From a virus, in IMG/VR virus record IMGVR_UViG_3300002835_010096, positions 1 to 23,871 of that record: a DNA stretch of 23,871 nt; one strand, given 5' to 3'. The position numbers and the translations under genes are program-made. Below the pieces are notes generated by a model. The model searched no databases and was not told the DNA's origin. It worked only from the letters and a program-made list of their open reading frames with translations. Positions 11,706 through 23,871 of the stretch are shown here, piece by piece (position 1 is the first letter of the stretch; each line of letters opens with the position of its first letter).

Positions 11706-11810
11706 TTCCGTTGTTACGGTGGTGCGTAAACAATGTGTAGCAAAAGGAATTGTCATTTATGACTTTTGAATACCCTTGAGGATGCACCACCCCTTGAGGG
11801 TTTTTCATTT

Positions 11811-12269
11811 ATGGTAGTTTACAAAATCACAAACACAGTCACCGGAACGGTTTATTTTGGTTCAACACATAGTTTTGGATACAGAATTTTGATTCATAAA
11901 GAGGATTTGCATAATAAAAAGCACCACAACTATAAACTTCAAAAGGACTATAATAAGTATGGCAAAGATGCTTTTAAGTATGAAATCATAAAACATTTCT
12001 CAACTAAAGATGATGCAGAAAAGTATGAGTATAAACTCATAAACAAGCACGAAAACATTTACAATATTCAAAAAGAATCTTATGCTTTCCCTGACCTTGA
12101 AGGTAAAACCAGAATGACAACATCCAAAAATGGATGCACAATAGTTTCAAAAAAGTTCACGCCTTACAAAAAAATTAAGAAGAAAAAGAAGAAGTCGAAT
12201 GGTAAATCAATTGCTGAAAAGCAAAAAGAACGAGGACTGAAATTCAAAAGAAATGGAAATGAAATATAA
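11811..12269 (+). CDS. GIY-YIG endonuclease (free-standing homing type)
   Basis: A 152-residue nuclease of the GIY-YIG family, which cuts DNA and often spreads its own gene between phages. The domain starts at residue 1: VVYKITNTVTGTVYFGSTHS contains the paired motif (YKIT ... VYFGST), followed by Arg at about 27, the Lys/His/Asn-rich helix (KHHNYKLQKDYNKYGKDAF) and the conserved Glu region (DAEKYEYKLINKHENIYNI). The C-terminal 60 residues are strongly basic, including a K-rich run, and probably bind DNA. The frame can be extended to a TTG at 11766, but ATG 11811 fits the family start exactly. It interrupts the phage gene order between oppositely oriented blocks, as expected of a mobile nuclease. 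Confidence 0.85.
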   Translation: MVVYKITNTVTGTVYFGSTHSFGYRILIHKEDLHNKKHHNYKLQKDYNKYGKDAFKYEIIKHFSTKDDAEKYEYKLINKHENIYNIQKESYAFPDLEGKTRMTTSKNGCTIVSKKFTPYKKIKKKKKKSNGKSIAEKQKERGLKFKRNGNEI

Positions 12270-17849: not shown

Positions 17850-18260
17850 ATGAGAACCATTCACGAAATCAAAAAAGAAGAGCAGGAAAAGTACAATCAA
17901 CTCTTCAAAGAATGCCTTGTCTTTTGGGCTTTCTCTAATGAGCAATTCGTTGAGAACAAAACACCACTTCAAGACGGTGAAAAATATGTATCAATCGGTG
18001 CCGGTGGATATTTGCCGAAATCCAATGTAGGCAAATTAACCGAGGGAATGAAGTCAATTAGAGCATGGCACAAAGCAGAAATAAAGAAGAGTAAAGATTT
18101 AAGACGGGAATTTATTCTTTATGCCTTGAATAATCACGAATGTTTTTATACAGGGGATTATACAGATGCCTTCTATACTTTAGGCAAAGGATACACCAAA
18201 AAAGAAGTTTATCAGGTTTATCAGGCAGAAGTAGAGAAAAACAGGGAATTAGTTCACTGA
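17850..18260 (+). CDS. Hypothetical 136-aa protein whose stop lies in a ribozyme core
   Basis: A helical, charged protein (MRTIHEIKKEEQEKYNQLF) with a Gly-rich middle (YVSIGAGGYLPKSN) and an aromatic stretch (HECFYTGDYTDAFYTLG). Similar proteins of unknown function seem widespread in Bacteroidota phages. Its last sense codons GTT CAC form one side of hammerhead stem I, and the TGA stop (18258-18260), with a second TGA directly after it, lies inside the CTGATGA catalytic box. A ribosome ending translation here would cover the ribozyme core, which could link translation of this gene to RNA cleavage. Confidence 0.75.
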   Translation: MRTIHEIKKEEQEKYNQLFKECLVFWAFSNEQFVENKTPLQDGEKYVSIGAGGYLPKSNVGKLTEGMKSIRAWHKAEIKKSKDLRREFILYALNNHECFYTGDYTDAFYTLGKGYTKKEVYQVYQAEVEKNRELVH

Positions 18261-18306
18261 TGAGGCCTGAAGGCCGAAACACGGGAAATATTTCCCGTGT
18301 CTGAAT
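18252..18306 (+). ncRNA. Type I hammerhead ribozyme
   Basis: All core elements are present in order. Stem I is GTTCA (18252-18256) paired with TGAAT (18302-18306). CTGATGA is at 18257-18263. Stem II is GGCC-TGAA-GGCC (18264-18275), followed by GAA. Stem III is a perfect inverted repeat ACACGGGAAA...TTTCCCGTGT, and the cleavage triplet is GTC, ending at 18301. Stems II and III are closed and stem I is open, so this is type I. Cleavage between 18301 and 18302 would split the mRNA between the 136-aa and 103-aa genes. It would leave a hairpin 3' end upstream and a 23-base leader before ATG 18325. Confidence 0.92.
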
Positions 18307-18324
18307 CTTAAAACTTAAAAACCA

Positions 18325-18636
18325 ATGAAAAAAATTTTATTAAATCCATTTTCTCATGCACTCGGCAAAAATCCACTCATGGAAACATCCGGTAAAATTG
18401 TATTCACAGACGGTGAATATAAAATTTACAGGCATTTTGACCGTCACTTTGTCCATACCTTCAAAAATATTGTAATAACCGAAAGGACAGGACCTAATAA
18501 GGACCTTATTAACGGATTGAAAAACAATATCAAACCAACAGGTGAAGCGTCAATTTATCATGACTTTGAGCGTCCCCAATGGGCCATAAATGAAGGCTTA
18601 AAAATCGCTAAGGAAATAAATTTTACCATTCAATAA
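18325..18636 (+). CDS. Hypothetical 103-aa protein after the ribozyme
   Basis: A basic protein (MKKILLNPFSHALGKNPLME) with beta strands and His/Arg-rich turns (YKIYRHFDRHFVHTFKNIVI). No family is recognised. It starts 23 bases after the ribozyme cleavage site, with the leader TCTTAAAACTTAAAAACCA. After cleavage its mRNA would begin with a 5'-hydroxyl at 18302, which affects decay and possibly translation. Confidence 0.7.
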   Translation: MKKILLNPFSHALGKNPLMETSGKIVFTDGEYKIYRHFDRHFVHTFKNIVITERTGPNKDLINGLKNNIKPTGEASIYHDFERPQWAINEGLKIAKEINFTIQ

Positions 18637-23248: not shown

Positions 23249-23674
23249 TCAGAATAACGAGGTTTGGTCTGAATTGGTTACATTATTTTTACGATTCTTA
23301 ACCCTGTTAGGCACATCGTATCGGTTGTGGCATCTTTGGCACATGGCTTTTAGATTCGAGTAATCGTTGTTGCTGATGTCGTGATCAAGGTGAGCAATGG
23401 TTAGGACGATAATAATTAACTTATAATCATCATCACTATACTCGTTGCAATGTTTAATAAGTTGAATTGCATCCATGTATTTTAACTCGCCAAACCCTGC
23501 TTTGTCGTGCATTTCATTTCCAGCGGTACGCTGAAATATTCCATTTAAATCACGATAACCAACCGCATAATTCTCCACTCCACAGCACTCACATTTATTA
23601 TCAGCCCGTTTAAGAATATCCGGTCTGATTCGTGATTTCCATTCCGGGTGATATAGTTTATAATCAATTGGCAT
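23249..23674 (-). CDS. HNH endonuclease
   Basis: A 141-residue HNH nuclease. MPIDYKLYHPEWKSRIRPDI leads into the first zinc pair CECCG (residues about 28-32). The catalytic His region is IAHLDHD, followed by Asn in NDYSNLKAMCQRCHNRYD, which supplies the second zinc pair (C..C) and the terminal His. A longer frame reaches 23779, but the start at 23674 overlaps the upstream stop as TAATG, which settles it. In phage genomes this type is either a homing or a packaging-linked nuclease. With no terminase beside it, a homing or replication-associated role is likelier. Confidence 0.85.
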   Translation of the reverse strand: MPIDYKLYHPEWKSRIRPDILKRADNKCECCGVENYAVGYRDLNGIFQRTAGNEMHDKAGFGELKYMDAIQLIKHCNEYSDDDYKLIIIVLTIAHLDHDISNNDYSNLKAMCQRCHNRYDVPNRVKNRKNNVTNSDQTSLF

Positions 23675-23871
23675 TATTTCGGTCGTGTTGTTTTTGATAA
23701 TTTCCAATCTAATCCGGTGGGGAGGGTGAAGCCGGATGGTGCGAAACAGCCGTTCCAAAAACAACCTCTCGTAACCCACCCTTTAAAATAGCCGCTTTTA
23801 GTCTCATCGTACATATGAAATTCCGCCCACTCAGGAGCATTTGACCAATCAACGCTGTATGGGTTCGGTTC
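23674..23871 (-). CDS. Hypothetical phage protein, N-terminus beyond window edge
   Basis: The last 65 codons of a gene that enters from the right edge. The visible part, with Asp/Trp-rich residues (DWSNAPEWAEFHMYDETKSG, then WVTRGCFWNGCFAPSGF), resembles the 'DWSxAPEWAxxHxxD' segments common in small proteins of Bacteroidota and other phages of unknown role. It ends in TAATG with the HNH gene start. Confidence 0.7.
   Translation of the reverse strand, partial: EPNPYSVDWSNAPEWAEFHMYDETKSGYFKGWVTRGCFWNGCFAPSGFTLPTGLDWKLSKTTRPK

Follow-up and report, generated by a model that had tools for sequence, protein, structure and literature searches.

Hammerhead ribozymes of type I have been described between the genes of phages and prophages (Perreault et al. 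2011, PMC3088659). In prophages they flank single genes or blocks of genes, a role in the processing of long phage RNAs has been proposed, and those prophage arrays that were tested cleave in vitro, with a set from A. tumefaciens also cleaving in E. coli (PMC3088659). The biological role of prokaryotic and phage hammerheads is stated as an open question in PMC10085705 and PMC6155905.

Here we describe such an element in a viral DNA of 23,871 nucleotides (IMG/VR record IMGVR_UViG_3300002835_010096, positions 1 to 23,871), the whole of which is referred to as the window. It shares its core, type I topology and co-directional intergenic position with the hammerheads of PMC3088659, and can be likened to the arrays reported there that flank single genes and for which long-RNA processing was suggested; it differs in that CUGAUGA contains the upstream gene's stop codon, stop codons being unmentioned in PMC3088659. 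The HHphage ribozyme of haloviruses HF1 and HF2 (PMC3088659) likewise precedes the start codon of an early gene, by only 13 nt, but it is a structural variant of the core in an archaeal virus, and its relation to the upstream stop is unstated. The core, stem II and stem III of the RAGATH-1 hammerhead (RF03152) align across 18238-18306, but the score is 32.3 bits against a gathering score of 56.3 bits and the upstream hairpin of that family is unformed in the window. The discontinuous hammerhead of rodent Clec2 3' UTRs (PMC6155905) is also 3' of a coding region, but belongs to type III, has a very large helix I and resides in mammalian 3' UTRs, and the accessible part of that paper reports no core-nested stop.

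We consider it probable that the window element, a type I hammerhead, serves intercistronic RNA processing at the edge of a swappable cassette, that it does so within an early operon of compact layout, and that the upstream stop codon is kept ahead of the cut. Behind this reading stand the anatomy, homology, covariation, cassette exchange and stop codon distribution described below.

Anatomy of the hammerhead and its neighboring genes

The element spans 18252-18306 on the plus strand, and the sequence contains all core positions and three stems of a complete type I hammerhead, as the original prediction held. The 5' strand of stem I, GUUCA (18252-18256; sequence reading, and the fold of 18249-18308), is followed by the catalytic core box CUGAUGA (18257-18263; sequence reading, and the covariance model R2 introduced below), stem-loop II with GGCC-UGAA-GGCC (18264-18275, strands 18264-18267 and 18272-18275 around the loop UGAA; folding and R2), the core GAA that provides G12 A13 A14 (18276-18278; sequence reading and R2), stem-loop III with its A15.1-U16.1 closing pair (18279-18300, strands 18279-18288 and 18291-18300; folding and sequence), H17 = C18301, and the 3' strand of stem I, UGAAU (18302-18306; sequence reading and folding), all on the plus strand. 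Cleavage is predicted at 18301/18302 from the hammerhead consensus. The core is that of a type I ribozyme, with CUGAUGA, GAAA, A15.1-U16.1 (U18300) and an H17 that is C18301, i.e. not G, and of the three helices helix I is the open one. Stem III is formed by CACGGGAAA...UUUCCCGUG, then U16.1 and C17 (18301); within stem-loop III is a perfect 20-nt palindrome, CACGGGAAATATTTCCCGTG, the innermost stem III pairs being replaced by a 4-nt loop in the RNAfold structure.

Folded in isolation, 18249-18308 adopts exactly the hammerhead, and the fold of 18243-18314 has z = -3.43. In longer transcripts the minimum free energy fold pairs UUAG (18249-18252) with CUGA (18301-18304), not hammerhead stem I, and so engages the cleavage site. 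Stem I is only 5 bp long, its outermost pair being a G.U, and is without the AG...CA edges frequent in other phage hammerheads (48-member alignment); given these features and the competing fold, activity could be slow or modest. Most of the 48 aligned phage type I hammerheads carry a 6-bp stem I edged by AG...CA together with a similar AU-rich loop II, and this combination possibly represents a conserved tertiary contact.

The upstream gene encodes 136 aa (17850-18260, plus strand) and, by its match to Pfam DUF7659 (PF24692, E 7.7e-25; also phrog_37583, E 7.1e-6), is a real gene; peptide patterns recovered no relative of its product in viral contigs, and one match of 28.7% was found in a Vibrio phage. 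Its UGA stop (18258-18260) forms bases 2-4 of CUGAUGA, a second in-frame UGA follows directly (18261-18263), and its final codons, GTT CAC, supply the 5' strand of stem I, each of these having been correctly predicted. The core location of the stop follows from the frame of the gene, the only one of the three in which CUGAUGA is read as stops. On the other side a 103-aa gene (18325-18636, plus strand) starts 23 nt past the predicted cut, and the hammerhead lies, again as foreseen, between co-directional early genes. We note that open reading frames elsewhere in the window resemble by eye a GIY-YIG endonuclease (11766-12269, plus strand) and an HNH-type endonuclease (23249-23779, minus strand).

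Statistical and comparative support

Among 300 dinucleotide shuffles of the window there were two matches to the strict descriptor, one of them equal in quality to the window element, such that an equal match is expected by chance in about 1 in 300 windows with homology left uncounted. Phage hammerheads were gathered from viral contigs by patterns that fix only portions of the core and stems, and R2 was built from 48 of them with the window and its sister phages excluded; it detects the window element with 46.9 bits (E ~1e-10) as the sole match within the record. In the 48-hammerhead alignment 98.7% of cells are paired and covariation is 0.85 versus 0.17 when shuffled, figures that lean towards structure because the members were picked by a descriptor requiring pairing. 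A check free of such circularity uses a pattern that is silent on stem I: 110 of the 122 distinct matches listed have at least 4 bp of stem I in register, and when one strand is shifted by 1, 2 or 3 bases the number drops to 1, 0 and 7, respectively.

In the proposed check against the Rfam hammerhead models, no family reached its gathering score, which is a curator's cut-off and not a defining feature of hammerheads, and RF00163 matched no control genome either; the top two sub-threshold matches are both hammerhead families, RAGATH-1-hammerhead (32.3 of the 56.3 bits for gathering, E 7e-4) and Hammerhead_3 (19.9 bits), and the independent R2 model identifies the element at the E value given above. 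Scanning viral contigs for the exact sequence turned up no copy, annotated phages contain nothing that matches the DNA of this region (or that of the hammerhead array at locus L360), and a pattern scan of bacterial genomes gave almost no descriptor matches, those few looking like chance.

Gene exchange around the hammerhead in related phages

Sister contigs 3300031951_000604 (L001/L043), 3300047094_001400 (L044) and 3300044621_002214 (L045) share long stretches with the window at ~87-99% identity. The downstream 103-aa gene of L001 is 100% identical to that of the window but is preceded by an unrelated gene without a hammerhead, and homology picks up again at 18306, the 3' edge of the ribozyme; the DUF7659 gene plus hammerhead of the window thus stand where L001 has neither. 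L001, L044 and L045 contain a homologous hammerhead farther downstream, ahead of a 64-aa gene. With the C of CUGAUGA taken as 0, the gene upstream of it is RadC-like in L001, with its stop (UAG) at -7, and a 193-aa gene in L044 and L045, with its stop (UAA) at -12; homology between L001 and L044/L045 here begins 13 nt 5' of CUGAUGA, the hammerhead and 64-aa gene being kept while the upstream gene is exchanged. L045 has a further hammerhead with an unrelated stem III, the core kept, and an upstream UGA stop at -15. These swaps across the window, L001 and L044/L045 place the hammerhead at the edges of exchangeable gene cassettes. More distant relatives (L046-L048, ~67-85% identical) have no hammerhead in the stretches examined, and L046 has none in its whole record, indicating that the element is dispensable.

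The sister phages read the same TTAGTTCACTGATGA in other frames and terminate at a UAG or UAA located within stem I or ahead of it, and the CTAATTTAGTTCACTGATGA of L001 and L044 has stops in all three frames (TAA at -12, TAG at -7 and TGA at +1). Since the sister copies are entered in different frames, ending at -7 (UAG), -12 (UAA) and -15 (UGA), the nested stop is not conserved in the lineage of the window hammerhead. We also observe that the hammerhead at L001 6112-6170, shared with L044 and L045, has U.U at its first stem II pair, which is G-C in 45 of 46 distinct homologues listed, and A at H17; though kept identical in three phages, this copy may be weakened or inactive.

Stop codons across phage hammerheads

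The descriptor census of viral contigs yielded at least 205 strict hammerheads on at least 125 loci, at least 42 of which have two or more; arrays of up to six occur among the matches listed, intercistronic and on the same strand. The positional analysis uses the matches listed only, a sample skewed towards a GC-rich stem II and C at H17, with mechanical open reading frame calls, among which a clear upstream gene (at least 60 aa) could be named for 152 hammerheads, representing 133 protein families. The stops of these 152 peak at -9 to -7 and at -3, corresponding to the 5' strand of stem I, and 146 of them lie between -16 and +14 relative to the core. The core UGA at +1 is the stop in 31, the window included (20%; 29 families, 28 loci), with no competing open reading frame in 24 of the 31, and in 13 of those listed the stop comes later, at +8 to +14.

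The suggestion that a nested stop is special to the window is therefore not borne out. Within the openly accessible literature, to which the search extended, we found no description of a stop codon in a hammerhead core, so that the arrangement does appear unpublished there, yet about a fifth of the listed phage hammerheads with a clear upstream gene share it. Judged from its bases and their homologues, the window ribozyme is real and of a known kind, and the core-nested stop is real yet common among phage hammerheads; a regulatory meaning for it is unproven.

A hammerhead grafted in random frame would be expected to produce 32.7 core stops among the 152 listed, compared to the 31 observed; the nested arrangement as such is therefore not enriched, and over-enrichment of core stops among all listed hammerheads is rejected. 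A different picture emerges for the 43 listed genes that reach the core, for which 29 end at the core UGA (14.3 expected), 12 end later in the ribozyme (16.0 expected) and 2 run beyond the cut (12.7 expected); this conditional test, with p 6e-6 uncorrected for kinship, is the only significant one. Genes passing the cut would lose their stop on cleavage, which accounts for their near absence with no need for regulation, and the preference of core-reaching genes for the core UGA could reflect harm from ribosomes within the ribozyme, or could reflect compactness. The distance from predicted cut to next ATG has a median of 27 nt (quartiles 23-33, n = 170 listed), the window value being 23 nt.

Two arrays are informative in their own right. 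In L053 (IMGVR_UViG_3300031366_000001, a GC-rich, unrelated 49-kb phage contig), five type I hammerheads lie between consecutive genes at 548-2935 on the minus strand, two of them with a core stop and one whose core is translated, its stop lying in the loop of stem II. All four hammerheads on the minus strand of L334 have a candidate upstream open reading frame that terminates at the core UGA, which makes core stops look like the norm for that lineage.

The stop distribution bears directly on the possibility, raised with the original prediction and regarded by us as unlikely, that cleavage is gated by translation. In this view a ribosome that terminates at the core UGA would keep the core open, cutting would be limited to RNAs whose upstream gene is poorly translated, and cleavage would report on translation. 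A ribosome terminating at any of the 146 listed stops from -16 to +14 would overlap stem I or the core, and the excess of core UGA stops among core-reaching genes points the same way, but the stop position is unconserved, the sister copies being entered in other frames and ending within stem I or ahead of it, overall core UGA use equals that of a random-frame graft, and compact genomes together with the need for a stop upstream of the cut account for most of the pattern. Masking by ribosomes would also not be specific to nested stops, as the same 146 stops would extend it to nearly all phage hammerheads. We are equally doubtful of the broader proposal that phage hammerheads conduct translation-coupled mRNA processing, with CUGAUGA doubling as a termination signal that excludes elongating ribosomes and with cutting timed by, or sensing, termination; the core-UGA bias (29 of 43 listed) and the near absence of genes beyond the cut fit this proposal but are not proof of it.

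Discussion

Under intercistronic processing, the reading we favor, cleavage, when it happens and what it does to expression are inferred as follows. The polycistronic early RNA would most likely be cut behind C18301. The DUF7659 mRNA would then retain its stop codon and carry two 3' hairpins, and the next gene would receive a short 23-nt leader bearing a 5'-OH. The ribozyme sits at a cassette boundary with no room to spare behind the upstream gene, and selection appears to hold the stop of that gene ahead of the cut and, for the most part, no later than the core.

That the window copy is a formerly active ribozyme, now just a 3' hairpin, is suggested by its short stem I, missing AG...CA edges and competing fold, as well as by the U.U of the L001 sister at a stem II pair that is otherwise nearly always G-C; with all core nucleotides intact in the window and stems II and III strong, degeneration seems improbable to us. 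We hold it more improbable still that the hammerhead is primarily a selfish or recombination-boundary sequence, in which a conserved ribozyme lets phages swap cargo at its edges and cleavage is minor. Both types of exchange, of the upstream gene with the hammerhead retained (L001 versus L044/L045) and of gene and hammerhead jointly (window versus L001), are as such a role would have them, but recombination has no need of compensatory changes in three stems and an invariant catalytic core. The weakest proposal, that the motif arose by chance or that the palindrome in stem III acts as an intrinsic terminator or a DNA-binding site with an incidental hammerhead match, has the perfect 20-nt palindrome in its favor but is very improbable, being largely refuted by the R2 result and by the rarity of an equal chance match (homology uncounted), and we reject the terminator and DNA-palindrome versions since no T run lies behind stem III and stem III is unconserved, that of the further L045 hammerhead being unrelated with the core kept.

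The census thus presents a picture of phage hammerheads that overlap the stop codon of the gene upstream, 1 in 5 of those listed using the catalytic UGA itself as the stop, and, among the matches listed, of genes that hardly ever pass the cut and of cuts positioned ~27 nt before the next start. This provides a testable view in which hammerheads would separate cistrons in phage transcripts, and in which the ribosomes and the ribozyme must share the same bases.
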